Below are positions 5,605 to 34,358 of a DNA stretch of 35,114 bases, one piece after another. A program made the translations under genes and the position numbers. The notes under the pieces are model-generated. The model did not search any database, was not told the origin of the DNA, and was given only the letters and a program-made list of their open reading frames with translations. Source of the stretch: Terriglobia bacterium (lineage in GTDB: Bacteria; Acidobacteriota; Terriglobia; UBA7540). The stretch is taken from NCBI GenBank assembly GCA_020073545.1, contig JAIQEZ010000045.1, positions 1 to 35,114 of the forward strand, read 5' to 3'. Every line of letters begins with the position of its first letter. Within the stretch, counting starts at the first letter, position 1.

Positions 5605-5934
5605 ATGCAAATCCTTATCGCAGAAGATGATGTCATCACCCGCCGCACGCTCGAGGCTCTCCTCGTCAAATGGGGCTATGCCGTGATCGTGGTTCGTGAC
5701 GGCGTCGAGGCGTGGAAAATACTGTTGAACTTAATCACCGGGCTGTCAGATGTTGTCTGCCCACTCCCACTGAAAACCCGACTGGACCGCTTGCATTCAG
5801 ATGTGGTGAGTCGTATGTTAGCGGTCGGTCGATATTCCAAAACGGAATCCCCGGTAATGCCGATTTTGGGACAGTTACTCGGGGCTGAATGCTGCGCTGG
5901 CAAGCACGGCAGTACCTACCCGGGGGAGAAATGA
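5605..5934 (+). pseudogene. Response regulator truncated inside the receiver domain
   Basis: The first 40 or so residues are a normal receiver start (MQILIAEDD, then a helix and DGVEAWKIL), parallel to the intact receiver just upstream. Homology stops at about base 5724, exactly before the strand that should carry the phospho-acceptor Asp. The rest of the 109-residue frame is unrelated sequence. The ATG at 5605 is preceded by a GAGG 9 bp away. The break most likely marks the left edge of inserted DNA: everything from here to about 17 kb has accessory character. The product would lack D, T and K and cannot be a working receiver. Confidence 0.75.
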
Positions 5935-6410
5935 AGCAGGAGTTTTGGACGGAAAAACAGACTGCCGCCTTTCTTGGCGTCCAGCCGGGAACCTTGGCTA
6001 TGTGGCGTTACTTCCAGCGCTATCCGCTGCCCTTTGTGAAGATGGGCGTGTGGGTCCGCTATCCCCGGGCGGAAGTGTTGGCCTTTGCCCGTGTGTATCC
6101 GATGTGGCGGAAGATGTGGACACGCCCGCTCCCGGCGGCATGGTGGACGGAAACACAGACGGCGGCATTTCTTGGCGTGCAGCGTGGGACCTTGGCGGCG
6201 TGGCGCCGCGAGCGGCGCTATCCGCTGGCCTATGTAAAAGTGGGCGCGGCGGTCCGCTATGCCCGGGCGGAGGTGCTGGCCTTTGCCGAAACGTACGGCG
6301 TTTTGAAACGCGCGCGGCTCCAGCGGCGACGGTTGAATATGGACCACTCGCAGCATGCAAAAGGTTTGAATGCGAGGAGTTTGAAAGCAGTAGATAGGAA
6401 GGCGCCGTAA
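5931..6410 (+). CDS. Tandem-HTH excisionase-like DNA-binding protein
   Basis: A 159-residue protein built of two copies of the same roughly 55-residue unit (about 4-58 and 69-123). Each starts W-T-E-x-Q-T-A-A-F-L-G-V-Q and ends V-R-Y-x-R-A-E-V-L-A-F-A. The pattern of helix-turn-helix followed by a two-stranded wing and R-[YF]-x-x-x-[ED]-[VI] resembles the MerR/AlpA excisionase (HTH_17) fold, normally present once in proteins of about 60-70 residues. A good GGGGGAG ribosome site precedes the ATG, which overlaps the stop of the truncated receiver frame. A basic tail follows the second unit. It could bind two sites or one long site, as an Xis-like or regulatory protein of the island. It converges with the AAA+ gene 19 bp away. 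Confidence 0.72.
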   Translation: MKQEFWTEKQTAAFLGVQPGTLAMWRYFQRYPLPFVKMGVWVRYPRAEVLAFARVYPMWRKMWTRPLPAAWWTETQTAAFLGVQRGTLAAWRRERRYPLAYVKVGAAVRYARAEVLAFAETYGVLKRARLQRRRLNMDHSQHAKGLNARSLKAVDRKAP

Positions 6411-6429: not shown

Positions 6430-7968
6430 TCAGACCTCTGATTTCGAGGCTGGCATGACGGTGACCCGGCCGCCCAAGTCCCGGATCACGCGCCGGCCTG
6501 CCGCAGCAGTTTCCTCTTCGTAGCGGTAGACACCTGGCGTGGAGGCGCTGATGAACTTCCCGGACGCCATCTGGCGCAACGCCTTGATCTGCTCCGCCGC
6601 GGAACGTGAAACCGGCACGATGTACCGCGATGCCTGGACGAGAGTTACTCCCAACCGGTGCGCCTTCCGGCAGCACTCTTTGATTTCCGCACCTGTCCAG
6701 CCTTCATCGTTCGGCAGCTCGCCCGACACGTCATACTTCTTGAGATAGATTCCCCAGATCGTCTCGCGCTCCTCGGCCGTTGGTAGATCAAAGAAGAACG
6801 TGCCCAGCGTGAAGCGCCTACGCAGCTCGGGTGGCAAGCTCGCGATGGAATTGCAAGTCGCAATGAACAGCATCCGCCCTTGCGAAACCGCGTCAATGAT
6901 CTGGAGCGCCGTGCGAAGTCGTTCGGTCGAAGCACCCACCAGAGAACTCTCCATGGCCGGCAGGTCAAAAGCAATCGTGGGGATTCCCGCCGTACCGCCC
7001 GTGGCCTTCGCGGCCGCACTTTTGGCGGCGCCGGGTGGACCAATAAACACGGCTCCGTCCGCCTCGCGGTCCTGCATGTACGTCAGGATGGTCCCCGTCA
7101 TCTCCGTCTTTACGCCAGAGAGGTCAGTGCCCGTTCCCGCAAACGCCTTCTCAATCTCATCAATGAACACGACAACGCGGGGAGGATCGACACCTCGAAG
7201 CACTGCCCGCAGGAAGTCCTTGACGTTCTCGACCCCGCCAATATCCTCAAAGGTCTCGCCACCTCGCCACACCGCGAGACCCGGCGTCTGCTCGATGATC
7301 TGGCGCTTGCGCTCCCAGAGGTCTTCTGTATCCAGTTGGCGCTTGACCAATGAGATCGCCAGTGCCTGTTCCGCCGGAAAGGCGGCCAGGCCGACAAGGG
7401 CATCTACGGCCCTGACGATCACCGAGCGCTCGGGCTCACCCAGGTTGGCCGCATTGAAAGTCTCCCGAACAATCTGCTCCAGGTGAGTGGTGGAAGGCAG
7501 CGGCTCATCAAGGACGAGAACGTCCTGACCCAATTCCGGCGGCAACGTCGCGCCAGGCGCTGCCAGCAATACCAGCATCCGGCCCGTCGCCTTGAATGAA
7601 TCTCGCAGGTCCCAGATCCCTTGCATCACTCCGGGGTCATTCCAGAAGCGGTGCGCGTTCGAGTAGAGCAACAGCCCGTCCTCGCAAAGCTGCTGGGCCA
7701 AAAGCAGGGTGTCGACCGGCCCCATCGTCGCACCCTGGCGTTCGCCCAGCAGGCGCGCCAGTTCGTCGCCGCTGTCCCGCCCGATCGCATAGAGGCCGCG
7801 GACCACATCCCACCCGAGCAGCGGGGGAAGCTCGCGGTTTTGCTTGAGAGTCTCGATGATGAAATGCGTTGTGCTTGCCGGGTCGGCAGTGCGTACCGCC
7901 ACGAGCGGAGTCGAGACACACCGCGCAGCATGGAACGCCGACCGAAACTCCTCCATAGATCGAATCAT
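6430..7968 (-). CDS. Ycf46-like AAA+ ATPase with permuted core
   Basis: A 512-residue AAA+ protein. Residues 1-235 form an N-terminal domain that broadly resembles Ycf46-type ATPases. The core then reads in an unusual order: Walker B VVVFIDEIEK (265-274) and a segment TGTILTYMQDRE come first, then Walker A GPPGAAKS (310-317), then the helix IDAVSQG, then sensor 1 with N373 in ATCNS and an arginine finger in PPELRRRF, then a sensor-2-like helix GWTGAEIKECCRKA. In ordinary AAA+ proteins Walker A precedes Walker B. The P-loop also has Ala in place of the Gly before Lys. The frame is continuous. It is the last gene of the DUF1257-DUF2997-radical SAM operon, starting 65 bp after the latter, with ribosome site AAAGGAG. 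Role unknown; probably a remodelling ATPase acting with its operon partners. Confidence 0.85.
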   Translation of the reverse strand: MIRSMEEFRSAFHAARCVSTPLVAVRTADPASTTHFIIETLKQNRELPPLLGWDVVRGLYAIGRDSGDELARLLGERQGATMGPVDTLLLAQQLCEDGLLLYSNAHRFWNDPGVMQGIWDLRDSFKATGRMLVLLAAPGATLPPELGQDVLVLDEPLPSTTHLEQIVRETFNAANLGEPERSVIVRAVDALVGLAAFPAEQALAISLVKRQLDTEDLWERKRQIIEQTPGLAVWRGGETFEDIGGVENVKDFLRAVLRGVDPPRVVVFIDEIEKAFAGTGTDLSGVKTEMTGTILTYMQDREADGAVFIGPPGAAKSAAAKATGGTAGIPTIAFDLPAMESSLVGASTERLRTALQIIDAVSQGRMLFIATCNSIASLPPELRRRFTLGTFFFDLPTAEERETIWGIYLKKYDVSGELPNDEGWTGAEIKECCRKAHRLGVTLVQASRYIVPVSRSAAEQIKALRQMASGKFISASTPGVYRYEEETAAAGRRVIRDLGGRVTVMPASKSEV

Positions 7969-8033: not shown

Positions 8034-8639
8034 CTACCAGGGCAAGCCGCGGGTGGGGAATCCCGTGACCTCCGCTCGGCCGCCTTCCTTGATGCTGACT
8101 TCAGTCAGCTCTTCGCTGAAATCGGCGGGAGTGTAGCGGTGGCTGAACAGCCGCAGAACCTGGTTGCGAGTTGTGCGCAACGGCTGACTGCCTGGCTGAG
8201 CCTGATTGAAACGCCCAACGACGGCGAAGTCAAGGCAGGCACGGATTTCTTGCCAGAGACGGCGCCTGTGTTGTTCGGACGAACCATCTCCCCAGGTCCA
8301 GTATCGACCCTTGGCGAGTTCGTGTTCCGCATAGCCGCTGAACATGCCGAAGCTTAGCTCTGGGGCTTGCTGATGCAGGCCTTGAATCAATCGCAGCAAG
8401 CTGTCCGCTTGCTGCATGGGCTCGCCACCGGAAAAGGTGACACCCTCCAATGTATGCTGTGCCTGTGCCCGCACGAGATCCTGAGCTACAACATCAACCG
8501 GGACTTCGGCGCCATGAAACGGATGGGTTCGCGAGTTCCAACATCCAACACACCCGACGCTGCATCCCTGGAAGAACACCACGGCACGAAGGCCTGGCCC
8601 GTTGGCGCGGCTGGCTGGAATCAACGCATGAAGCAGCAT
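8034..8639 (-). CDS. NrdG-like 4Fe-4S radical-SAM protein
   Basis: A 201-residue protein of the compact radical-SAM activase type. The cluster motif C-x3-C-x2-C is at C26, C30, C33 (FFQGCSVGCVGCW), and the SAM-contacting GGEP motif is at 71-74 (TFSGGEPMQQ). Length and layout resemble anaerobic ribonucleotide reductase activators and the '4Fe-4S single cluster domain' proteins. No class III reductase gene is present in the window, so an NrdG role is not supported here. It lies 12 bp downstream of DUF2997 and has a GGAGG ribosome site 6 bp before ATG. The operon partners (Ycf35-like, Ycf46-like) suggest a radical-dependent modification or activation step on an unknown substrate. Confidence 0.8.
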   Translation of the reverse strand: MLLHALIPASRANGPGLRAVVFFQGCSVGCVGCWNSRTHPFHGAEVPVDVVAQDLVRAQAQHTLEGVTFSGGEPMQQADSLLRLIQGLHQQAPELSFGMFSGYAEHELAKGRYWTWGDGSSEQHRRRLWQEIRACLDFAVVGRFNQAQPGSQPLRTTRNQVLRLFSHRYTPADFSEELTEVSIKEGGRAEVTGFPTRGLPW

Positions 8640-8651
8640 GGCAGTCCTCCT

Positions 8652-8843
8652 TCAGCGCTGGCTTTTCTCTCGCTCGATCACGTGGCCGGTGTAATAGGCG
8701 GGCTTCTTCCGCACCACCTTCACACTGTCTCCGCCACGGAAGTCATCAAAGGCCTTCTCGCAGCCCTGTCCCGCAAAGCCCTCCAGATCGAGGGTGGAAT
8801 TTCCTTGCTCGTCAATGGTGACTGTAATCGTTTTCTCTTGCAT
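8652..8843 (-). CDS. DUF2997 small protein
   Basis: A 63-residue acidic and basic mixed protein. Its start (KTITVTIDEQGNSTLDLEGF) followed by GxxC and a short helix matches the DUF2997 pattern, in which a two-stranded beta hairpin reading T-I-x-I-x-x-x-G is followed by G-x-x-C. It lies between DUF1257 (6 bp upstream) and the radical-SAM gene (12 bp downstream) and has a GGAGGT ribosome site. DUF2997 proteins are habitually found beside Ycf35-type DUF1257 proteins, which supports the call. Biochemical function is unknown. Confidence 0.8.
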   Translation of the reverse strand: MQEKTITVTIDEQGNSTLDLEGFAGQGCEKAFDDFRGGDSVKVVRKKPAYYTGHVIEREKSQR

Positions 8844-8849
8844 GGTGAC

Positions 8850-9266
8850 CTACCTCCGCGCGACAAATTGGAGTCGCACCTGCTGCCCTTCCGAGGTCTC
8901 GGTCACTTCCCGGCCTTTCAGGATGTAGCCCCTGGCACGAGCCATGGCCAGGGTCTGCTTCTCCTTGTAGAGCTGCTGAACGCGGCCAAGCCACCTGCCG
9001 CCATAGCCACGGTGCTCGTCGAGTTCGTCCGTGATCAGGGTGAGCCGGCCATCCGGCTGGCGCGTAAACCCGATATCACCATAGGCCCCGCGTAGGTGCT
9101 GGCGTCGGATAACAATGTTCGCGACCTTTGCCTCTTGCTCCGAGTAGTACGAGTTCAGCCGCACTCCCTCTGGGTGGACCTCAACCTCGTAACCCATCTC
9201 CTTCAGAGCCTCCACGAGGTATTTCTCCTCGCGCAAGACCGTCTGAGTCTCACCGTATTTCGACAC
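8850..9266 (-). CDS. DUF1257 (Ycf35-like) protein
   Basis: A 138-residue protein whose start, MSKYGETQTVLREEKYLVEA followed by LKEMGYEVE, is typical of the DUF1257/Ycf35 family (M-S-H-x-x-x-x-x-T-x-I-x-x-x-x-x-L-x-x-A-L-x-x-L-G). The GTG at 9266 is preferred over an upstream ATG at 9314 because AAAGGAGG lies 6 bp before it and the family fold begins there. It is the first gene of a four-gene minus-strand operon. A CCACATTATG element lies about 46 bp upstream of the start. Ycf35 is known from cyanobacteria and plastids but its function is not established. Confidence 0.8.
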   Translation of the reverse strand: MSKYGETQTVLREEKYLVEALKEMGYEVEVHPEGVRLNSYYSEQEAKVANIVIRRQHLRGAYGDIGFTRQPDGRLTLITDELDEHRGYGGRWLGRVQQLYKEKQTLAMARARGYILKGREVTETSEGQQVRLQFVARR

Positions 9267-9307
9267 AGCGTGCCTCCTTTCTGTGTATTCCGGTTGTTGC
9301 GTGACCT

Positions 9308-9326
9308 GAACCATAATGTGGCCGCG
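9308..9326 (-). promoter_or_regulatory. CCACATTATGG element upstream of the DUF1257 operon
   Basis: On the minus strand this reads CGGCCACATTATGGTTC, about 45 bp before the first start codon of the operon. The same ten bases CCACATTATG recur before the primase gene (12347-12356), in a cluster of direct repeats at 11185-11310, and once inside a coding region (14135-14144). It may be an operator, or a copy of an insertion-sequence terminal repeat. Confidence 0.4.
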
Positions 9327-9730: not shown

Positions 9731-10867
9731 ATGGAAAGGCTCCGTGTATTAAGAAAAAAAGTCGTGCGTCATGCTCAACAGGCCCTCGCTGGCTTCTCAA
9801 CATACTTGCAAAGTAGCCCGGACAGGCTCGCTAAACTTCTTCGCAAGGCTGACGAGCGCATCAAATCCTTTCCTGGCATTGAAAGTGACCGCACTCGGCT
9901 CAAAAGCGAAATCGAGGCTGCCGAGGTCGAGATCAACCTTCTCCGCTCTGTCGAGGGAACTGTGCAGGATGTCCCTGTGCCGCGGGAAACGTTTTCCCAT
10001 CTGAAACACATCTTGAACCCCAAGCGTTACGTACCCGATGCGCTCAAGGGATTGGCCGAACGGATAGCACAACTTGGTGGAGACCAGGAGATTATCCAGC
10101 TTCGGGTGTCGCCGGAGGAAGCTGCGACTCTGCTCGAGGGGATCCCACGATATGGCAGTATCCTCTCTTACTTCCCCGAGCGACCGCCGAGAATGCTGCC
10201 TCAACCCGATGGATCGGAACTTGAAAGGGAACCGTGGCGCTGGGTATGCAACCTCAAGCCTGGGCGCAGCCTGATGGGTCCCACTCTAGGCGCCCCCGGA
10301 ACGGAACCCGTGCTCATCTGCTCGCCAAGGGAAACTGGTTCGCACCGGCCCGGTGGAACCTTCTACCTTGTCGGGATTCGCAGCGCAGTAATGTGTGGAG
10401 CTGATCGGATTCTCGCCGAACTCGCCTCTCCAGGCTGGCCGCCATGGGGTGACCGCACAGGTCTGAAAAGGAGCCACATCGAGCTCTCGACGAACTCCGA
10501 GGTAAGGGTATACAAAACCTACCGGCCTGCGGTGCAATGGTTTGTAGCGCTCTGTGATGAAGCTTGCCGCGAAAACCCCGCCGCGTGTCGGACCAATGAA
10601 CCGCACTTTATAGAGAATCCCTCCTTCTCCTACAAAAGGCCCCTTACGCAGATCGAGGTGTGTATGCAAGGCACAATCAAACGAGTCATCCGCGATCGTG
10701 GATTTGGGTTCATTCGCTCCACTGATGGCCAAGAGGTGTTTTTCCACCGCAGCAGTCTTCAGCAACTGAATTTTGATGGGTTGAAAGAAGGCGAGACGGT
10801 AGAGTTTGAGATGGAGCGCGGCGAGAAAGGGCCACGGGCCACGAACGTCCGACCCAGTGCGAAGTAA
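9731..10867 (+). CDS. Unknown protein with C-terminal cold-shock domain
   Basis: A 378-residue protein. Residues about 15-75 are helical and charged, probably coiled coil. Residues about 80-305 are an unknown globular region with no motif I recognise. Residues 312-378 form a complete cold-shock domain with both RNA-binding strands, RGFGFIRS and EVFFHRSSL. The start has GGAGG 7 bp before ATG. The cold-shock part begins with Met encoded by ATG at 10664, preceded by GAGG, and is exactly the length of a free-standing CspA-type protein; a separate internal product is therefore possible. The fusion is unusual, as Csp proteins are normally alone. It is transcribed away from the DUF1257 operon. Confidence 0.7.
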   Translation: MERLRVLRKKVVRHAQQALAGFSTYLQSSPDRLAKLLRKADERIKSFPGIESDRTRLKSEIEAAEVEINLLRSVEGTVQDVPVPRETFSHLKHILNPKRYVPDALKGLAERIAQLGGDQEIIQLRVSPEEAATLLEGIPRYGSILSYFPERPPRMLPQPDGSELEREPWRWVCNLKPGRSLMGPTLGAPGTEPVLICSPRETGSHRPGGTFYLVGIRSAVMCGADRILAELASPGWPPWGDRTGLKRSHIELSTNSEVRVYKTYRPAVQWFVALCDEACRENPAACRTNEPHFIENPSFSYKRPLTQIEVCMQGTIKRVIRDRGFGFIRSTDGQEVFFHRSSLQQLNFDGLKEGETVEFEMERGEKGPRATNVRPSAK

Positions 10868-11184: not shown

Positions 11185-11310
11185 ACTCCCGGCCAGGATA
11201 TGATTCAAATCCAAACTTCCGGCCACATTATGATTCAAACGGACTTCCCACAGCCCGGGAGCACGGGGAAGAAGCGGGGTTTGAGGGTCACGACGGCCAC
11301 TTTATGATTC
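11185..11310. repeat. Three direct repeats of a CGGCCA-N-TATGATTC element
   Basis: Copies begin at about 11190 (CGGCCAGGATATGATTC), 11220 (CGGCCACATTATGATTC) and 11294 (CGGCCACTTTATGATTC). The first two are 30 bp apart, close to three helical turns. The third overlaps the last codons of the primase gene. Multiple short repeats of this kind occur at the ends of IS21-family elements; alternatively they are binding sites. The rest of the 10868-11287 gap shows no gene I can support. Confidence 0.5.
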
Positions 11311-12310
11311 CATTCGTAGCCATTTGTTCGTTCAAGTCACAATCAGGCAGAACTGGCCGCGGGCAGCCCACTGCGGCCCGAATCATGTCTCTCGTGCAGC
11401 CAGCCCAGCAGATGTACTTGCGAGGGTCCTCGATCGAGATCGAGAGGTTATCTGCGCTGCGGTCGTGCCCCTCTTCGGCGCAGGATGGGCACCGGGTGAT
11501 ATTGTTGTGCCCCACTGTGCGGAGCTTGGTGTGGATGTGCTCGAGGATCCGGAATTCGGACCCACCCGTGTGTCTCCTCATCTCCGGTTCAGCCTTCGGC
11601 TCTGGTGGCAGGAACTGAGGTGGATTGGCTTTCCCCGCAATCAATCCGGCAAGCTGGTCACCGGTCATCTTGGGAAGCGAATTCAGGTAGCACATCTGCT
11701 TCTCAAGATCTTCATCGGCACCGTCAAACCAGAAGCGCTGAGCCGCGCCCCGGTGAATGCCCAGCGGCCCACGGATGGCATTGCCGTACCTGCCGGGCTT
11801 CAACGCATCGTGCTTGGGGAAGACCTCGATTCCTTCCCGCCGCTTGCCTCCCTTGACCGGGATACCCAACCGCAGGGCAAGGCCGCAAATGTAGATGCGG
11901 CAGTCCCGCGCTGGGAGCGGTTCCGCCATGAATATCCAGAGATGTCCGCCACGATGGCTTTTCTCAAGAGCCGACTCCACCCCATCCTGCCTGAGGTAGA
12001 AGCTGAGCTTGAGGAGATCCGTAAGCGCATCCCAATAGTCCGCGTCGATGGCCATCCACTTCGAGCACTGGGTGGCAGGGTTGATCGAGTAGAGGCCGAT
12101 GGTGATTTCGCCTTCGAGGTGCCGCCGGATTGTGTCCAGCGTCAGGCTCAGCCCCTGGCCGGTTTTCTTGTCCTTGGGGCGGTAGTAGTAATGCCGGCCA
12201 TTCTCCGCGTGCGGTCGGTTGGACTGAAGGGTGTAGGCCCGGCGGTTGACGAAGAGGCGGAAGTAGTCCGCCACCACAGTGGCGGGCGCTCTAAGGCGAA
12301 GCATTGGCAT
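11288..12310 (-). CDS. TOTE-type archaeo-eukaryotic primase with zinc finger
   Basis: A 340-residue protein. The N-terminal two thirds match the primase of TOTE conflict systems: the metal-binding motif hhhDhD appears as WMAIDADYW, the catalytic histidine motif as EKSHRGGHLWIFM, and the third motif as EVFPKHDALKPGRYGNAIRG. A C-terminal module with CPSC and CWAGC about 27 residues apart forms a CHC2-type zinc finger as in DnaG primases. The ATG at 12310 is chosen over one at 12349 because GGGAGGAG lies just before it. Unlike full TOTE proteins there is no fused helicase or nuclease. The last residues overlap a repeat also present downstream, so the C-terminus may have been reshaped by an insertion. 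Role: primer synthesis or repair within the island. Confidence 0.8.
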   Translation of the reverse strand: MPMLRLRAPATVVADYFRLFVNRRAYTLQSNRPHAENGRHYYYRPKDKKTGQGLSLTLDTIRRHLEGEITIGLYSINPATQCSKWMAIDADYWDALTDLLKLSFYLRQDGVESALEKSHRGGHLWIFMAEPLPARDCRIYICGLALRLGIPVKGGKRREGIEVFPKHDALKPGRYGNAIRGPLGIHRGAAQRFWFDGADEDLEKQMCYLNSLPKMTGDQLAGLIAGKANPPQFLPPEPKAEPEMRRHTGGSEFRILEHIHTKLRTVGHNNITRCPSCAEEGHDRSADNLSISIEDPRKYICWAGCTRDMIRAAVGCPRPVLPDCDLNEQMATNGIIKWPS

Positions 12311-12345
12311 TCTCTCCTCCCGGAAGTCAGGTGGAGGACACATCT

Positions 12346-12357
12346 CCATAATGTGGG
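12346..12357 (-). promoter_or_regulatory. CCACATTATGG element before the primase gene
   Basis: Eleven bases identical to the element before the DUF1257 operon, located about 37 bp upstream of the primase start and within the 84-bp gap after the membrane-protein gene. Equivalent position and orientation relative to two start codons favour an operator shared by the two operons. Confidence 0.4.
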
Positions 12358-12394
12358 TGGTAAAACGAGAGGAATTCTCTGCCGAATAGACCGG

Positions 12395-12871
12395 CTAGAG
12401 GCTCAGTAGGTAATCAAAGGCGGACAGGTTGCCGAAGCGGACGGAATTTATACGCTTGCCCACGACGTTGGCGAAGTACTGGAGAATCGCGGTCAGCTTC
12501 AGGATAGCGGGTTTTTCGCGCAGTCGGAGCCAACGCCGGGTGATCAGGGAAACGAAGACTAGGCGGAAGCACAACATCACGAACCGCTCTTCAAGCGAAT
12601 AGCGCTGGTTCACGTTGGCGGCATTCCTGAGCAGATAAGTGAGTGCCCGGAAATCGCACTTGAGGCTCATCTGAAGCTGGAGGGAGTCGAAGGGCGCGTT
12701 CATTTCTTCCAACGCCTCACGCACGGCAGGAAACTCCAGGCGGTTGGCCTTGACTATGCTCAGGAAGTACTCCCGGTCGAATTGGCGGCGCAGGATGGTT
12801 TGGAGGGTGCCCTGCAGATAGAAGAAGAAGAGCGCGGTAGAGAGGATCAAGATTAGGGCGGCCAGGACCAT
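12395..12871 (-). CDS. Small membrane-anchored protein of unknown function
   Basis: A 158-residue protein. The first 22 residues are a strongly hydrophobic helix (VLAALILILSTALFFFYL) that would anchor it in the inner membrane, with the remainder a basic, helical cytoplasmic part rich in Arg and Leu. A GAGGT ribosome site precedes the ATG by 5 bp. I recognise no family. It lies between the recombination-factor-like gene and the primase gene on the same strand and may belong to their transcription unit. Confidence 0.62.
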   Translation of the reverse strand: MVLAALILILSTALFFFYLQGTLQTILRRQFDREYFLSIVKANRLEFPAVREALEEMNAPFDSLQLQMSLKCDFRALTYLLRNAANVNQRYSLEERFVMLCFRLVFVSLITRRWLRLREKPAILKLTAILQYFANVVGKRINSVRFGNLSAFDYLLSL

Positions 12872-13126
12872 CGTTTACCTCACTCAAGCTTCCAGTTCTA
12901 CCGGGACCGCGGTCACACACAAAACCATGCCGGCGCGGCGCCGCTGGAGCATTCGCTATCGTGGCCAGCTTAAAGGGGAACGCCAAGGTTGGCAACAGTA
13001 CGGGGGTACCGCCTGCCGTGCTCATCCTCATGCAAGCTGAGAAGTTCCGTCCGCTCATTTGGGCAAGATTGTTGACGCGCTAGGGGTTCAAATGGAGGTC
13101 AACGTAGGGAAGAAAAGCACTCGTGG

Positions 13127-14362
13127 TCAGTGCGTTGCGCCAGCGAGGGCTGACGCCATGAGGTCAGTGGCCGCCTGCAGCTTCGGGATATCAGCCTCCG
13201 TCATGCCGCCGACATCACCGTACTTGAAGGTGCCACCACTTGCCCATTCGACCACTTCCCCGATCGCTTGCTTCTTGGTCGTGGCAACTCGCCGTGCTGC
13301 CGTCAGGAAATCGTTGCGAAGCTGGTTGAACCCCGAACTTGCAGCCGACCCGTTCCCATTGTTCTGCGTAGGAGGTAAGGCGGCCTTGTCGGCGGGTGTC
13401 TTGCCCGACCCGTTCGCGCCATTCGGGGCAGTGTCGCTGTCGAAGGACGAAGGCTTCGTCGTCGGCTGCGGTGCGGTAGGGGCGGGGAGCGTATCGGAAG
13501 GAGAACCTGACGCGGCGCCTTCGCCGGCCGCAGAGCCATTCAATGACGCCGGATAGAACTCCGCCACGACCTCTGGCGCCTGCTCTTGCTCGTCCTCTAC
13601 CACGTCCAAGACCTTGCCACCCGACCCGAGCAGCTTTCGAGTCTCGGCAAACAGCCGTGCGTTCTCAGTCAGGTTAGCGATAAGTTTCCGCATGTCGTCG
13701 CCTTCGACCTCGAGACTCAGCGCCCAGATGGATGATGTCTTCTTTCTCTTCTCCTTGCGGTCGAAGTACGTGGCCTCCTCCGGGCGAACGGTCAGCTTGG
13801 CCGTGATCCCGGCCAGGCGACCGCCCGTGAAAGTCTGGATCTCCTGCAAGGCGGAGTGGATCTGGCGAATGGATCGGTAAGAGCACGTGTGGATGCGGCA
13901 GACACTCCCCAGCCGGGGGAAGTCCGCCAACACGAAGCGTAGGTCGCCACCCGGTTTGCACTGTCCACTCGAAAGCTCTGGACAACCGCTGCCGCAGTGG
14001 GTCCATGGCTGTCCGCTAGGCTTTTCAGCCGTGCGCCGAGTAGCCGAGGTCCCGTCACCCCAGCACTTCCGTTCGGTGGCCGTCCACCAGGCATAGGAAC
14101 TGGGAAAGACGTTCTCGATGTCATCATCGATCAACATAATGTGGAGTTCGCGGCACTCGTCTCCGTAATGCTCGATCAGTTCCGGATCGACTTCCCACCC
14201 AACCCGGTTGGCTGACTTCTTCTTGCGCAGGAAGACGAAGTGGTCGAGCTTGGTGGGATAGTTGTGGTCTCCATTGGGTGGCAGGCCGATGGAGACCTTG
14301 GTGGATACGGACAGCCGCTGGACGACACGACCGTCTTGGTCGTGCGTAACACCAATGATCAT
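13127..14362 (-). CDS. Recombination directionality factor-like protein (Gp3 type)
   Basis: A 411-residue protein with GAAGGAGG before its ATG. The first 220 residues resemble the Gp3-like recombination directionality factor family of serine-integrase phages and conjugative elements: a segment ELHIMLIDDDIENVFPSSYA, a Cys cluster (C100, C123, C127, C135), then LRFVLADFPRLGSVCRI and a block ending in a conserved basic patch and W-A-L-S-L-E-V. Residues about 265-345 are a low-complexity Ser/Pro/Gly/Asn linker, followed by a helical C-terminal domain of about 65 residues. Known members control integrase direction; other annotated relatives are called 'hydrolase or metal-binding protein'. No integrase is visible in the window, so the partner is either outside it or lost. 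Confidence 0.6.
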   Translation of the reverse strand: MIIGVTHDQDGRVVQRLSVSTKVSIGLPPNGDHNYPTKLDHFVFLRKKKSANRVGWEVDPELIEHYGDECRELHIMLIDDDIENVFPSSYAWWTATERKCWGDGTSATRRTAEKPSGQPWTHCGSGCPELSSGQCKPGGDLRFVLADFPRLGSVCRIHTCSYRSIRQIHSALQEIQTFTGGRLAGITAKLTVRPEEATYFDRKEKRKKTSSIWALSLEVEGDDMRKLIANLTENARLFAETRKLLGSGGKVLDVVEDEQEQAPEVVAEFYPASLNGSAAGEGAASGSPSDTLPAPTAPQPTTKPSSFDSDTAPNGANGSGKTPADKAALPPTQNNGNGSAASSGFNQLRNDFLTAARRVATTKKQAIGEVVEWASGGTFKYGDVGGMTEADIPKLQAATDLMASALAGATH

Positions 14363-17168: not shown

Positions 17169-20100
17169 AAATGAACCTTCGCAGCGAACTCGAAGTCGCG
17201 CGGGTTGCCCGCGCTCGTAATCGTACCAAATGCCGCGGAACCGAAGCTGCCATTAGGATCGCTGAGCGGCGGCGTATTCGTGACGTTGAATACCTCGGCT
17301 CGAAACTCGAGGTTAACTCTTTCGGTGATTCGGAAGACTTTCCCTAGCATCAAGTCCGCATTCTGCAGGGCGGGTCCGCGCACCGGGTTGCGCGAGCTGG
17401 TCCCGATGGTAAACTGCGGCGCCGCCGTGAATGCCGCCCGGTTGAACCACTGTGCGATGGAGCGATTTGCGAAGTCGTTGGGATTGCTGATCCGGTTTGG
17501 GCGCTGTGTTCCGAATCCCAGATTAGAGTTGGAATTCGTGGCTTGAGAAATTGCGACCCGATCTCCTGCCTGGACACGAACCAGGCCGGAAATCTCCCAC
17601 CCGGAGATTTTCCAGATCTTCGGGATCTGGTACACCCACCCTGATGAGAAAACGTGCGGGATATCTCCCTGAGAAAAATCTCTTTCGAGTTTCAGATTGT
17701 TCGCGTCCGCGACGCCTGTGTTCAGTATAGGTCCAGTAAAGATGGTTTGCGAAAAGACACTCGAAGCGCTGTCCATCAGCTTGGACCACGTATAGGCAAA
17801 ACTGAAGGTCAGACCTTTCGAAAGGCGCTTCTCCAGCTTGGCCGCCAACGCGTTGTAACTGGAATTGCCGATATTGTCCCGAAACAAAGCGACCGTCGTG
17901 AATCGTGGAAATGGCCGCAACAATTGTTGCTGGGTGATTGTCGCACCACCAAGCGAGGACGACGCTGGAATCTGTCCAAAGAACGGGTTGGACACACGTT
18001 GCAGCAACTGCGATCCGAGCGAGAGATAATGGTCCGGAAGTTGATTGATGTTGGGGTCGGGAATGCCGAGGTTGGTGTTCTTGGAGCCCAGGTATCCCAC
18101 TTCCACATTGAGGTTCTTCCCGATCGTCTTCTGCACCGTAAGGTTCCATTGCTGGGAATAACCTGAAGCATGGTTTCGGTCCGTACCGAAGACGCCCTGT
18201 CCGAGTCCCGAGTTCGGATTCGGGGCCGCGACTTGCACGGTGGGGCCGCTGGCAAGCACGAAAGCTGGATGGATGTTGTCCTGTGACCGCTGTCCCACCG
18301 TCTGGACGAATGGAAACTGTGGCAGCGTGAACGGCGTCGTGATTCCACTTTGTTCGAACCAGATCATCCCATACCCCGCGCGAACTGCCCAGGAATTGCC
18401 GAGGCGGTAGGCCAATCCCGCACGAGGGCCGAAATCACAGCAGTCAAGATTGCGCGACGTACGCGGAAAATCCAGCACTTGCATTTGCAGGTTGAAGACA
18501 GCTCCCTGATTGTGGACCTCGGTCGATGGAAAGTTGAGGGTGTAGCGCGTCCCGAGGCTCAGCGAGAGCCGATCCGAAACTTTCCAGTCATCAACGACAA
18601 AAAACTCCGCGATGTGAGCGCGCTCCTGCAAAATCTGTTTCTGAATGTCGATCGTAAAAGAGTTCACATAGCCCAACAGCAGCGACGCCACCGCGTTCCC
18701 GGTGCCGGACGTGTTAAAAGTAAAACTGCCTGTAGGATTCGGAGGATTCAGCACGTCAAGCGCCTCGCGCCTGATGTCCGTTCCGAACTTGATCGTGTGC
18801 CTTCCGCGCACCATCGTGAATGTGTCCAGATACTCGGTAATCGATGTCGTGAAATTGCTGTTCGCTCCCGACGTGGGCCCGATCTGCTGAAAACCGGCAA
18901 CCGAGAAGATTGGCAAAACAGATGAGAAGGAGGTATCTGGAAGCCCCGCCACGGTGACGCCGCCGTTTTGCAATGATTTCTGATGCAAATCACGTCTGGT
19001 GTACCCGAATCGTGCCTGGTTCAACATCGTCGGCGACACGCTCCACTCGTAGGCCGCTGCGATGCCATCGCCTCGCGTAACTGCATGACCTGTGACTCCC
19101 GAGGTGATGCTCCCGCTTCCATCCGGCAACGGGGTGACCGGCGTGTCCTCGTCGCGAAAATACGAATAGCGCCCGAAAATACGATGATTGGAGCCAAGAT
19201 AGCGATCGATTCTAGTGTCGAACTGGTGCTGCCCATCCGGCTCTACCCCCGTGCGCGAGAAATTGTTTGCGGCTCTTGAGGTTGTCGGCGCTGGATAGTG
19301 CTGTAGTACTTGCTGTGCGACCAAATCAACTTTGTTCGCAGGTATGGTCGTAAACGATTGGCCGCTCACGGGATCGGTGACTGGCGTCGTGAAGATCCCT
19401 TGGCGCTGGGCAAGCGTGGGCACCGTGCTAATGCGAGTGACCGCGGTGCGCAGGCGAGAGCCTTGCCAGTCGGTAAAGAAGAAGGTTTTGCCTTTTTGAA
19501 TCGGCCCACCCAACGTGAAACCGTACTGATTGCGCCGGAATTCCGGCCTTGGACCAGGGGGCGCGAAGAGGTTCCTGGCGTTCAGGACCTCGTTCCGGAA
19601 GAACTCGAAGAGTGAGCCGTGCAGCGCGTTGCCGCCTGACTTGCTGTTGACCATGATCGTCCCGCCGTTGGAACGCCCGTATTCCGGGGAATATGCGTTG
19701 ATATTCAGACGGAACTCTTCGATCCCATCAATAATCGGAAAGAAGACCACCTGACCAGGCTCTGGTTGTAGTACGCTGATGCCGTCGTAAAGGTATTCGT
19801 TCGTCCGCGGGCGGCTGCCGTTAATCCGGGGGAGCACGGAGCCGCCGCCGGGAAGCGCCACTCCGGGCGATAGCGTGACCAGGGAGATGAAGTTGCGCCC
19901 GTCGAGCGGAAGATTAACGATCTTGGTCTGATCGACGTTGTGGCTGACCTCGCCCGTGGCGGTTTGCAGGAGCGGCGCTTCCGCAGTCACGTCTACGGAT
20001 TGTGCCTGTTCGCCCACTCTGACCTGGACGTCCAATTCGGTATGATCCGCAATGCGCAGAGTAATTCCAGACTGCCGGTAGGTGCGGAATCCAGGTTGCT

Positions 20101-30100: not shown

Positions 30101-30689
30101 GGCGTTATTTTCCTCCGGGATTCGCGTTTTCAACTCAGATTGCGCCCGGAATCCTACGCCCTTGGACTGGTCGAGGCAAGCTCAAACTCGCGGTCCCCTT
30201 TCGGGGCAACCATCGCCGCCCGTTTTGTCCCTCCTACGACTTCCGTGGTTTATTTTCCGCCCCCGACCTGCCTCGCCGACGATCCCGCCTGATTCTCCCG
30301 TCGAGCCTCAGGCTCAGCCCGGAGCCCTTCGTCTTTCTTGCCTTGTGCTCGACATCGAACACTGCTGCCGGATCCTGGAGATTGCACCGATTGCCCGTGC
30401 CGTCAGAACCGAATGGCGAAGCCGTGCGCAGAATCGTGTGTTCGCTTTTTATTCGCCGTGGTATAATGGAGTTTACAGGCTAGCGAACGTCGTCCGCACG
30501 ATTACGGTTCTGGTAGCGTTCGCGAGACGCGCCAACTACTATTTGAACCCCTTGTACGCGACGACCCGAGATTTGCGAGGGTAGATAGATTCCACTACAA
30601 TTGTTCCGTAATCGAGGCACGCGGGCAAGTTGATACACTGCTTCCGTGAAAATCGAGCTTCCAGCTAAATTGGAGGAGGACTCTTGACC
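30101..30689. other. Intergenic region upstream of the three-gene operon
   Basis: About 590 bp between divergent genes. No protein is supported. A TATAAT box occurs near 30461-30466 and a better -35/-10 pair near 30573-30601 (separate entry). The left part must hold the promoter of the glycosidase-like gene. Confidence 0.5.
30573..30601 (+). promoter_or_regulatory. Sigma-70-type promoter for the three-gene operon
   Basis: TTGCGA and TACAAT are separated by exactly 17 bp, about 90 bp before the first start codon of the operon. Both hexamers differ by one or two bases from the consensus. It gives the operon its own promoter, separate from the neighbouring metabolic genes. Confidence 0.5.
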
Positions 30690-32045
30690 GTGAAGCGACA
30701 AGTGTGGACGAACCCATCTGTCCTGGCGCTGGCGGGTGATTCCGATCCCGTTCAGGCCATCACCGAAAGAGCGCAATCTAAGGCGGTCGGGGCCATCCAG
30801 GACGGGTGGTCAGGGCCGCCTTACGATCCGTTTGCATTGGCTGAGTACCTGAATGTTGCAGTCGTTGCCCGTGAAGATATTCCTGAAGCCAGAACCGTCT
30901 CCTCGCGTGCCGGGTACATCATCGAGTTCAATCCTAACCGTCCGCGCAATCGCGTTAAATACTCCATATGCCATGAACTTGCGCACACACTGTTTCCCGA
31001 TTGTGCTGACAGGGTACGGAGTCGTCTCACGCACCGCGACATGAAGGGTGACGAGTGGCAGTTGGAAACGCTGTGCAACATTGGGGCGGCCGAACTGCTG
31101 ATGCCGATAGGCAGTACTCCTTCCCTCGAGGGTGGACGGCTCACGATTGACGCGATACTTGAAGCTCGCAAGCGGCACGAAGTGTCCGCCGAGGCCGTTT
31201 TGCTCCGAGCAGTGCGCCTCACGGCTGACCAATGCTGCGTGTTCAGTTCGTCCCGGCGCCTCTTATCGGGAGGCCGCGAGCGCTACTTGATCGACTACGC
31301 TATTGGTTCGCGCGCCTGGACCGGAGCCGTCAGCGCCGGTGCGGCTCTACCAGGGGCGACAGTTGCCAGCCAGTGCACCGCAATCGGCTATACAGCTAAG
31401 GGACACGAGGCATGGGACACGGTCGGCACTGTCCGGGTCGAGTGTTTAGGTGTGCCGCCATATCCGAACCACATATACCCGCGCGTTCTGGGGATTATCA
31501 GACCGGAAAAGCAGACTCCCGTTGATATCGCAGAGATCACGTACCTTCGCGGTGATGCGAGCCGACCACGCGGGAGCGGTCCGCGTATCCTCGCCCAGAT
31601 CGTGAATGACAGCGCATTTACCTGGGGCGGCGGCTTTTCTCTTACAGTTCGCGAAAAGTGGCCGGTCGCGCAGAAAGCGTTCCGTGCCTGGGCCGAGCGT
31701 GAACGCCGCAACCTGCGGCTAGGCACTGTTCACGTCGGGGTCGTGGATGAGAACCTTGCGGTGGTGAGCATGATCGCCCAGCATGGGTACGGTCCGTCAC
31801 CGAAGCCTCGCATCCGGTATATGGCTTTGAAGGCATGCCTCGAACGCTTGGGTAGCGTCGCGGCAGAGCGCGGTGCGACGGTACACATGCCCAAGATTGG
31901 CTCCGGCCAAGCCGGCGGTTCGTGGAATATCGTCCGCGAATTCGTAGACGGGGCTGTGTGTGCTCGTGGCGTGAAGGTTTTTGTGTATGAGCTACCCGGC
32001 GGGCCTGGCCCTTCGCACCCGCAGGCGACGCTTGAGTTTTCGTAA
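30690..32045 (+). CDS. ImmA/IrrE-type metallopeptidase fused to DarG-like macro domain
   Basis: A 451-residue two-domain protein. Residues about 35-180 form an ImmA/IrrE (DUF955) zinc peptidase: HELAH at 95-99 and the third ligand Glu at about 135 in AAELLMP. ImmA cleaves phage-type repressors, IrrE a DdrO-type repressor. Residues about 285-435 match the macro domains of DarG/ALC1 type: ITYLRGDAS, ILAQIVNDSAFTWGGGFSLT, VSMIAQHGYG, RIRYMALKACLERL and VHMPKIGSGQAGGSW. Such domains bind ADP-ribose and remove it from nucleic acid or protein. The GTG at 30690 is chosen because GGAGGAGGA lies 9 bp before it; a TTG at 30684 is too close. It is first in a tight operon with a PurA/PurZ-like and a DarT-resembling gene. 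Confidence 0.85.
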   Translation: MKRQVWTNPSVLALAGDSDPVQAITERAQSKAVGAIQDGWSGPPYDPFALAEYLNVAVVAREDIPEARTVSSRAGYIIEFNPNRPRNRVKYSICHELAHTLFPDCADRVRSRLTHRDMKGDEWQLETLCNIGAAELLMPIGSTPSLEGGRLTIDAILEARKRHEVSAEAVLLRAVRLTADQCCVFSSSRRLLSGGRERYLIDYAIGSRAWTGAVSAGAALPGATVASQCTAIGYTAKGHEAWDTVGTVRVECLGVPPYPNHIYPRVLGIIRPEKQTPVDIAEITYLRGDASRPRGSGPRILAQIVNDSAFTWGGGFSLTVREKWPVAQKAFRAWAERERRNLRLGTVHVGVVDENLAVVSMIAQHGYGPSPKPRIRYMALKACLERLGSVAAERGATVHMPKIGSGQAGGSWNIVREFVDGAVCARGVKVFVYELPGGPGPSHPQATLEFS

Positions 32046-32061
32046 TCGGCTGGAGCTTCGT

Positions 32062-33681
32062 GTGGCAAAAAGGATAATCGTTCTTTCGGGTCGAGTTTCA
32101 GCAGGCAAGAGCACGCTGGCGGACGCCCTGGAGGAACAGTTCGATGCGAATGTCCTCAACACGAAAAAAGTGATCACTGACACCGCGAAGGGTAAACTGG
32201 ATGCCGAACGCGGCGCACTTCAGCGCTTCGGAGATGTTCTGGACGACAAAACGGACGGGGAGTGGGTCGCGAATGCGCTTACTCGGCTGGTAGAGTCACT
32301 TCCCGCGGACGCGGTTGTCGTCGTTGATTCCGTGCGGATCACCGAGCAGGTGGACGCAATCCGGCGTGCTTACGGTCCTCGGGTAGTTCATGTTCACTTG
32401 GACGCAGACCTGACTGTTCTGGCGGAACGATATAAACGCAAGCAGCGACAAAGCAAATTCCGAGAGTTCAACTCGTACTCTCAGCTTTCAAACAACAAGA
32501 CAGAGATGCGCGTTGAGCTGCTTGCCAAGACCGCGGACGTGTTAATCAAAACGGACAACTGTACGAAAGCGGACGTGGTTGTCAGGGCCGCTTCGCGGCT
32601 CGGGCTGTACGGCCGCGAGCATCGGCAACTCGTGGACGTACTCGTTGGCGGGGCATACGGAAGTGAGGGCAAGGGCCACATCGCTTCGTACTTAGCTCCA
32701 GAGTACGACATTCTAATTCGTGTGGGCGGCCCAAACGCGGGGCACAAGGTTTTTGAGGATCCTGCGCCCTACGTGCATTACCTTCTACCCTCTGGAACGC
32801 GGCGCTGTAACGCAGCACTGATGATCGCGCCCGGTGCTGTCCTGAGTGTGCCGCAGCTTCTCCAAGAAATCGCCGACTGTCACGTCAGCAAGGACCGCCT
32901 GGCGATTGACCCGCATGCCATGATCATTGAGGAAGAGGACCGGAAGTTCGAGGAATCTACTTTAGTCGGCAGTATTGGATCGACGGGCCAGGGGGTCGGT
33001 GCGGCCACAGCCAGGAAGATTCTGCGCGGGGCAGTGCCCCCCGCAATCCGGCTCGCAAAGAACGCGGCAGAACTGAAGCATTTCGTCCGCGATACTCGCA
33101 GCATCCTCGACAAAGCTTTCCGCGACGGGAAGAAGGTATTTCTCGAGGGCACGCAGGGAGTCGGGCTCAGCCTCCATCACGGATCGTATCCGCACGTCAC
33201 ATCTCGCGACACAACCGTTTCGGGCTGTTTGTCTGAAGCTGGGATTCCACCAAGCCGCGTCCGCAAGGTCGTAATGGTCTGTCGCACCTATCCCATCCGC
33301 GTGAAAAGTCCTTCGAGAAAACGGAGCTCCGGCTTTATGGCGCAGCCACTCACATGGGACGATGTTGCCGCCCGTTCAGGGTACAACGCGCGTGAGCTAG
33401 AACGGGCAGAGCACACCTCCACGACGAATAAGCTCCGCCGTGTCGGCGAATTTGAGTGGGACTTGTTCCGGCGCGCAGTCTCGCTCAACGGGCCGACGGA
33501 CATCGCCCTGTCCTTTGCCGATTACATTAACCGCGGCAACACTGAAGCGAGGCGGTTCGACCAGCTCACCCTCGAGACGATTCGGTTTATCGAGGAACTT
33601 GAACGAGTTGCGTTTGCGCCAGTGTCCCTGATTTCCACTCGATTCAACTACCGTAGCATCATCGATCGTCGCTCCTGGTGA
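32062..33681 (+). CDS. P-loop nucleotide kinase fused to PurZ-like adenylosuccinate synthetase
   Basis: A 539-residue fusion. Residues 1-185 are a nucleotide-kinase-like P-loop domain (GRVSAGKST at 10-18; VVVVDSVR near 86-92 as Walker B region). Residues 190-539 are a complete adenylosuccinate-synthetase homologue: GGAYGSEGKG (196-205), GGPNAGH (222-228), GSTGQGVGAA, FLEGTQGVGLSLHHGSYPHV and RRVGEFEWDLF. In PurA the P-loop reads GDEGKG and its Asp is the catalytic base; here it is Ser (201), as reported for PurZ enzymes that act on dGMP in the 2-aminoadenine pathway. The PurA guanine-binding TKLD is replaced by SFAD, arguing against GTP use. GTG start with GGAG 6 bp upstream, 16 bp after the previous gene; the next gene overlaps by 4 bp. 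Confidence 0.85.
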   Translation: MAKRIIVLSGRVSAGKSTLADALEEQFDANVLNTKKVITDTAKGKLDAERGALQRFGDVLDDKTDGEWVANALTRLVESLPADAVVVVDSVRITEQVDAIRRAYGPRVVHVHLDADLTVLAERYKRKQRQSKFREFNSYSQLSNNKTEMRVELLAKTADVLIKTDNCTKADVVVRAASRLGLYGREHRQLVDVLVGGAYGSEGKGHIASYLAPEYDILIRVGGPNAGHKVFEDPAPYVHYLLPSGTRRCNAALMIAPGAVLSVPQLLQEIADCHVSKDRLAIDPHAMIIEEEDRKFEESTLVGSIGSTGQGVGAATARKILRGAVPPAIRLAKNAAELKHFVRDTRSILDKAFRDGKKVFLEGTQGVGLSLHHGSYPHVTSRDTTVSGCLSEAGIPPSRVRKVVMVCRTYPIRVKSPSRKRSSGFMAQPLTWDDVAARSGYNARELERAEHTSTTNKLRRVGEFEWDLFRRAVSLNGPTDIALSFADYINRGNTEARRFDQLTLETIRFIEELERVAFAPVSLISTRFNYRSIIDRRSW

Positions 33682-34358
33682 GTTTGCCTATGACCGTGGA
33701 CCAGCTCATATTGCATTACCCGTGCGTCTACCACATGGCGAACGCAGGCACTTGGGAATCAATGCGGCAGCGAGGTCTGCTGAGCACCACTGCGCTCCTT
33801 GACCTCTTCGGGATCGACGGAGAGGAGAGGTATCGGATCGAAAGTTGTCACCGACGACAATCAATCGAGATCACTAGCCCTCACTGTGGAACTGTCGTCA
33901 TCCGTGACCAGGCGCCAATGCGGGAGAGTGTCCTTAAGAAGTGTCTCGACGGCATCAGCCCACGCGAATGGTACGAGTTATTGAACCGGAAGGCGTTTTT
34001 CTGGGCGACGGATGCTCGCGTCCAGACGCTATTGGGGGCGAAGCTGTACCGGAACCAGGAGCACACCGTAATAACTGTTGACACGGCGAGTCTCCTTGCC
34101 CAGCATGCACGCCGTGTGACTTTGTCACCCATCAACTCCGGTAATACACTCTACAATCCCCGTCCACGCGGACGCCACACTTTTCGCACAATCGCTGACT
34201 ACCCCTTCGAGGAACGACGGAAGAAGCGGGGCCTCGCCAATGCCGTTGTCGAACTGGCGGTGGAATATTCCGTCCCCGATCTAATCAGTCATACGACTGC
34301 GGTTGAACTCAGACGCGGTGACGAAATTCTGCAGACCATATATTCTCGAGCCCGCTAG
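33678..34358 (+). CDS. DUF7002-like protein, DarT-resembling fold suspected
   Basis: A 226-residue protein starting at GTG overlapping the previous stop by 4 bases (GTGA); an in-frame ATG at 33690 is an alternative. Motifs match what I recall of DUF7002: YHMANAGTWESMRQRGLLST, then GTVVIRDQAPM, PREWYELLNRKAFFW, VDTASLL, SPINSGNTLYNPRPRG and a C-terminal VVELAVEYSVPDL. The opening Y-H-M-A-x-x-x-x-W-x-S-[MI]-x-x-x-G-L-L-S strongly resembles the NAD-binding start of DarT and RNA 2'-phosphotransferase-type ADP-ribosyltransferases (YHIT...I...GL), and the late Glu in VVELAVE could be the catalytic Glu. ART activity is inferred. Together with the macro-domain gene at the operon head it forms a plausible writer/eraser pair. 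Confidence 0.75.
   Translation: MSLPMTVDQLILHYPCVYHMANAGTWESMRQRGLLSTTALLDLFGIDGEERYRIESCHRRQSIEITSPHCGTVVIRDQAPMRESVLKKCLDGISPREWYELLNRKAFFWATDARVQTLLGAKLYRNQEHTVITVDTASLLAQHARRVTLSPINSGNTLYNPRPRGRHTFRTIADYPFEERRKKRGLANAVVELAVEYSVPDLISHTTAVELRRGDEILQTIYSRAR

Follow-up and report, generated by a model that had tools for sequence, protein, structure and literature searches.

The gene at positions 6430-7968 (minus strand) of the DNA analysed here, a stretch of 35,114 nucleotides from a Terriglobia bacterium (the window), raises the question of how an AAA+ protein can come to carry its Walker B motif ahead of its Walker A motif, and whether such a protein still works. Few molecular machines are as abundant or as well studied as AAA+ proteins, and annotation and structure classification treat the order of their motifs as a fixed signature. 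The frame is uninterrupted over 512 amino acids, without the frameshift that the initial annotation had already discounted, and encodes a double-AAA ATPase of permuted order. Walker B (VVVFIDEIEK, residues 265-274, positions 7147-7176) comes first in the chain, followed by a helix ending in TGTILTYMQDRE and then by Walker A (GPPGAAKS, residues 310-317, 7018-7041); D270 and G310 lie 40 residues apart, the distance first estimated. Sensor 1 (ATCNS, residues 370-374, 6847-6861; RMLFIATCNS spans 365-374) stands directly after ALQIIDAVSQG, the helix expected to lead into Walker B, as had also been read from the sequence. All the hallmarks of the AAA+ proteins are present (Walker A, Walker B with its catalytic glutamate, the sensor 1 asparagine, an arginine-finger region and a C-terminal helical lid) and are kept in 78 diverse sequences, among which E271, K274, G310, G313, K316, N373 and R385 are invariant and D270 is retained in at least 90%. 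The Pfam AAA profile was matched in three separate pieces (E 6e-13; residues 307-358 correspond to profile positions 2-53), as happens when an out-of-order domain meets a colinear profile, and p97 sequences and profile pieces likewise match the protein out of order.

The distribution of this order was followed in a curated set of 101 permuted and 59 canonical relatives drawn from Bryobacterales genomes, IMG/VR phage contigs and phage Tunturi_3. Walker B, Walker A and sensor 1 follow each other in this sequence in all 101 permuted-set relatives, down to approximately 35-40% identity, and Walker A precedes Walker B in 59 of 59 canonical ones; the Walker B acids of the permuted proteins read DE in 96 cases and EE in five. 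A genome scan returned 32 loci, mainly in Bryobacterales and other Acidobacteriota, whose full-length proteins keep the order down to 50% identity, and two scans of viral contigs found about 100 distinct contigs with proteins 35-62% identical (89% in L033), Walker B being first in all of them. A second scan of loci, which overlaps the first, gave 84 permuted loci with the starts of the Walker B and Walker A blocks 39-45 residues apart, 78 canonical loci with the starts 59-65 residues apart in the opposite order, and no mixed forms. The isolated Acidobacteriota phage Tunturi_3 encodes a permuted protein (gp103, 44% identical); four queries against 50,697 records found no further cultivated phage with the swapped order, and the phage relatives that were checked (Dylan, SM1, HJ05, JP1, RHph_I4 and Javan368) have the canonical one. 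On two Acidobacteriota contigs the permuted gene is split into several frames (L023, 5977-7490; L020, 106-1685), so either some cellular copies are decaying or these contigs are erroneous.

When alignments of the permuted proteins and of their canonical sister family were compared with hhalign, they matched over 415 columns (E 1.2e-86), with the core in register apart from two gaps: the first spans window residues 264-304, and the second falls where the canonical proteins have their Walker B block, behind alpha2. Homology to the Ycf46-like family is thus full-length, including the N-terminal domain and the lid, by both hhalign and the tree described below; Ycf46-like AAA+ proteins had been named at the outset as the canonical counterparts, and their motif order is absent from the permuted proteins. 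The sister family (Ycf46-like proteins of phage contigs and a Manganitrophus plasmid; L152-L177 and L041) shares the N-terminal domain, the Walker motifs, sensor 1, the lid, a C-terminal GAEIK...P.S...LR..A pattern and DUF1257, DUF2997 and DUF3150 neighbours, but has Walker A first and Walker B 55 residues later, and always has a glycine before the Walker A lysine.

Read against this family, residues 1-263 of the window protein (7180-7968, minus strand as for all parts) comprise an N-terminal degenerate AAA-like domain, D1-like by its match to p97 and with no Walker A, and a linker helix (247-258). The moved block, residues 264-304 (7057-7179), is the segment unaligned by hhalign and holds beta3 with Walker B (D270, E271) and alpha3 (strand 265-269 and helix 286-300 in the model), preceding Walker A instead of following alpha2. 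Residues 305-363 (6880-7056) carry beta1-Walker A-alpha1-beta2-alpha2 (Pfam AAA; model strands 304-309 and 331-334, helices 316-327 and 344-362), and conservation, hhalign and the model place beta4 with sensor 1 (N373), the arginine-finger region (R384/R385), beta5, the helical lid and a C-terminal tail in residues 364-512 (6433-6879). It is nearly certain that beta3-alpha3 (264-304) and beta1-alpha1-beta2-alpha2 (305-363) have traded places while beta4, beta5 and the lid stayed in place, i.e. that this is a non-circular segment swap. The strand order is beta3-beta1-beta2-beta4-beta5, as against the AAA+ standard of beta1 (Walker A)-beta2-beta3 (Walker B)-beta4 (sensor 1)-beta5, and by homology the protein is an AAA+ derivative in which this feature of order has changed. 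It fits the class of 'swaps', defined by two exchanged fragments that rotation of the chain cannot explain (PMC2213659); the same survey of protein structures found non-sequential relations within families of close relatives to be nearly all circular, with a genuine remainder in seven families (PMC2213659).

To place the change on a tree, the N, Walker B, Walker A and C blocks were aligned apart and then concatenated. A branch with support 100 separates the 89 permuted rows from the rest; they group with the canonical sister (support 99) apart from the other canonical relatives, and the order changes once. The same permuted clade (support 100) was recovered from the N and C parts alone, with both moved segments omitted, so it is not produced by the trait itself. 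All partitions other than the Walker B block gave one permuted clade (support 94-100); the Walker B block by itself, at 41 columns too short to resolve one clade, gave two changes. A single clade beside its sister, found also without the moved parts, favours a single origin of the permuted proteins.

These results bear on several other accounts of the order. For a rearrangement, frameshift or assembly artefact local to this genome we found no supporting point; it is refuted by the 101 relatives that keep the order, which come from separate genomes, from metagenome contigs and from an isolated, sequenced phage. Purifying selection acts on the gene (dN/dS 0.09 against a 92% identical relative), and the probability that remains for a local event is negligible. 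The initial annotation had looked to conservation of the order in homologues as support, and to homologues with the usual order only as a sign of a local event; the former is what was found. Judged from these relatives, the permuted order is a real and old rewiring and not a sequencing error. The annotation had also called the core circularly permuted, and this part has to be corrected: Walker B does lie ahead of Walker A, but a circular permutation would have moved beta4, beta5 and the lid too, and in the alignment with the canonical sister these still follow alpha2, just as the N-terminal domain still stands before the core, which refutes this reading and leaves it barely credible. A chimera, in which a Walker B block from an unrelated AAA+ protein took the place of the original one, or a repeated origin of the order could draw on the two changes, rather than one, in the Walker B tree, though that tree has only 41 columns; the block nevertheless resembles that of the family itself (DEIEK..AG..D.SG......L..M.D against DEIEKGLAG...DGGT...G.FLTWLND) and every other partition keeps the permuted proteins together, which makes both versions very improbable.

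We prefer an explanation in which one ancestral rearrangement would have exchanged two neighbouring core segments in a Ycf46-like (p97/Vps4-related) AAA+ protein. The route may have been an in-frame duplication of part of the core, after which the redundant halves were lost; each of 160 proteins examined has one Walker B block, and no intermediate with two was found among them or in the second set of loci. The outcome would be the order beta3 (Walker B)-alpha3-beta1 (Walker A)-alpha1-beta2-alpha2-beta4 (sensor 1)-beta5-lid. Taken whole, with the swap, the fold and route proposed for it and a role as a ring ATPase, we regard this explanation as highly probable.

An AlphaFold2 model of the window protein (input of 78 sequences, the Tunturi_3 row left out; pLDDT 89.4, pTM 0.79) has strands, in chain order, at residues 265-269, 304-309, 331-334, 366-372 and 389-392. 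VIA-align matched model residues 4-472 to p97 208-763 (D1-D2) over 397 residues (Z 18.5), which makes the N-terminal part, in the model, a D1-like AAA layer without a P-loop. Both layers are thus alike in predicted fold to p97/Cdc48 and Vps4-type AAA+ ATPases (4-472 against D1-D2, 232-481 against D2), but the D1 of p97 has the P-loop that is absent from the window N-domain, and its motifs stand in canonical order. On p97 D2 (6g2v), residues 232-481 scored Z 16.5 over 197 residues at 2.6 A with this order-dependent aligner, and the canonical sister, in a model of lower confidence (pLDDT 80), reached Z 22.8 on that chain, with 225 residues matched at 2.3 A. The permuted model falls short by 28 residues (36 on 3cf0), a number comparable to the 41 residues of the moved block, which such an aligner must drop. 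The structure prediction proposed as a check does match AAA+ structures, and it supports a superposition with shifted connectivity only indirectly, through the shortfall seen with an order-dependent aligner. Among the matches listed for BFVD structures there was no close full-length match, the best being canonical, or ycf46-like of unchecked order, with TM at most 0.69.

How the fold could tolerate the swap is suggested by the layout of the canonical AAA+ sheet, which runs 5-1-4-3-2 and whose parallel strands carry the Walker A loop, sensor 1 and the Walker B acids at their C-terminal ends. Three connections are re-routed: alpha3 leads into beta1 rather than beta4, alpha2 into beta4 rather than beta3, and the linker helix into beta3 rather than beta1. 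Each of them would join a parallel core strand at its N-terminal end, on the face opposite the nucleotide, and, to go by the canonical fold, would leave the active site untouched. With beta1/beta4 and beta4/beta3 adjacent in the sheet, two of the three detours would be one strand wide. Since all re-routed connections would lie on the face away from the nucleotide, we infer a normal fold, and it is quite likely that the chain still forms the usual AAA+ sheet and is an active ATPase.

Selection points the same way. The nearly invariant active-site residues and the low dN/dS make it very probable that the permuted protein is a working ATPase; the moved block has no amino-acid change against relatives of 92% and 89% identity, at approximately 0.46 synonymous changes per site. 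The P-loop had been singled out early on as lacking its usual final glycine, which is correct for the window protein (alanine before the lysine) but does not amount to a special trait: GK is present in 47 of the 101 permuted relatives, and E. coli RavA, of the MoxR group, has GPPGIAKS. RavA has the canonical motif order, belongs to a separate AAA+ clade and is an active ATPase, which shows alanine at this position to be compatible with a functional AAA+ protein. Nonetheless, 54 of the 101 permuted proteins have Ala, Ser or Cys in place of the glycine, as against none of the 59 canonical relatives, with at least 16 changes of state on the tree; given a loss in more than half of one group and none of the other, the nucleotide site of the permuted proteins may not work in the ordinary way.

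The same replacements could be taken to mean that the core is folded but catalytically dead and is kept as a scaffold. We think this most unlikely, given that the Walker A lysine, Walker B glutamate, sensor 1 asparagine and Arg 385 are invariant in the 78 sequences and that RavA is active with the same GxxGxAKS loop. A strand-swapped ring, in which the moved Walker B block would complete the active site of the neighbouring subunit rather than its own, seems improbable too: ring neighbours are close together in AAA+ hexamers, the block has a new position in the chain and the sequence would allow an arrangement in trans, but the single-chain model is confident (pLDDT about 95 around 261-270) and its connections are short (approximately 6 residues from linker helix to beta3 and 3 from alpha3 to beta1). 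That the rewiring altered the chemistry or cooperativity of the nucleotide site in a widespread phage AAA+ clade, with a relaxed Walker A glycine, possibly an inter-subunit Walker B, and the usual ring rules not fully applicable, is conceivable though unlikely.

Upstream of the ATPase gene and in the same direction (minus strand) lie a DUF1257 (Ycf35-like) gene, the first of the module (8850-9314; Pfam PF06868, 5.7e-10), a gene for a 63-aa DUF2997-like protein (8652-8843; alone below the Pfam cut-off, E 0.037, and found beside most relatives by an iterated profile) and, in the same operon as the ATPase, a radical SAM/4Fe-4S single-cluster gene (8034-8639; Pfam Fer4_12 4.9e-25, NrdG-like below the NCBIfam cut-off). 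Counting neighbours at 81 viral permuted loci gave DUF1257-like genes in 75, DUF2997-like in 75, DUF3150-like in 77 and radical SAM in 7, and at 34 cellular loci radical SAM in 27 and DUF3150-like in 21, several loci being truncated where the contig stops. DUF1257 and DUF2997 lie beside the canonical sister in 26 of 27 cases, so the swap most likely occurred within an already existing module. The DUF3150-like protein (approximately 315 aa, e.g. L118:9026-9976 and L124:8315-9322) adjoins permuted and canonical sister ATPases in most viral loci; one of two scanned members falls below the Pfam cut-off, and the window copy of the module has no DUF3150-like gene. Nothing on DUF3150 or DUF2997 was found in the open-access literature. 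Strong matches to the ATPase occur in 6 of 40 genomes of the window's order and in 3 of 396 genomes sampled from its phylum; the gene is accessory in cells. On either side of the module (11288-14362 and 5889-6410) lie genes for a TOTE-type archaeo-eukaryotic primase, a Gp3-like protein resembling recombination directionality factors and a double HTH_17 protein, and the presence of the first two makes it likely that it lies on a phage-derived or integrated mobile island. Adjoining the module, a gene at 9731-10867 (plus strand) encodes a 378-aa protein with a C-terminal cold-shock domain, whose long N-terminal part matches no Pfam family with confidence.

The product of the permuted gene would work as a ring ATPase in which the D1-like layer is dead and the permuted, D2-like layer is active; in phages and mobile islands it would remodel a protein partner from the module (DUF1257, DUF2997, often DUF3150 and sometimes radical SAM). 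Such a remodelling role, drawn by analogy from the p97-like architecture and from neighbours of unknown function, is tentative, with a chance slightly short of even.

As to known systems, IetA/SgiA, the Ycf46-related ATPase of protease-ATPase toxin-antitoxin and anti-phage pairs, is weakly similar, over the sensor 1-lid part only. SgiA has been described as SpoVK/Ycf46/Vps4-related (PMC10954446). Membership in IetAS/SgiAT was rejected at 32.5 bits against a family cut-off of 510 and with no subtilisin-like protease among the scanned neighbouring proteins; this weak similarity was all that a comparison with known defence systems gave for the ATPase.

No description of a natural AAA+ protein with altered motif order was found in the open-access literature, outside which most subscription journals lie, in a search that extended to permuted P-loop NTPases. 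In the circularly permuted P-loop GTPases (YjeQ/RsgA and YlqF/RbgA) the motif order is changed and activity is kept, but there it is the GTPase (TRAFAC) fold, not AAA+, that is permuted, and circularly. The major capsid protein of Bordetella phage BPP-1 offers a parallel: it is a phage protein whose very common fold (HK97) is naturally permuted in a non-circular way, explained by a similar argument of connectivity, namely chain ends close enough for reconnection (PMC3863775). It differs in being a structural protein, solved by cryo-EM, without recognizable sequence similarity to its canonical form, whereas the permuted AAA+ proteins are clearly homologous to theirs. By descent the permuted clade is clearly AAA+, with a defining connectivity feature of the fold changed. 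That a natural, old and widespread clade has another order would mean that one face of the AAA+ sheet can be reconnected without loss of the fold, and makes the clade a natural experiment on chain order and function. Canonical and permuted homologues align over their full length, so that, unlike in most known fold permutations, one can test directly how the rewiring affects folding, assembly and ATP turnover. A practical caution is that colinear profile searches report such proteins as several partial AAA matches.

Elsewhere in the window, the region at 30684-34358 (plus strand) encodes, as far as the eye can tell, a protein that has a HELAH metallopeptidase motif and perhaps a macro-like tail, followed by a nucleotide-kinase-like domain fused to an adenylosuccinate-synthetase-like domain and then by a DarT-like protein; to judge by these genes, it looks like a defence or nucleotide-modification island. 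The tRNA-Ser(cga) called by ARAGORN at 17560-17652 (minus strand) lies within a long TonB-receptor-like ORF on the same strand and is probably a false call.
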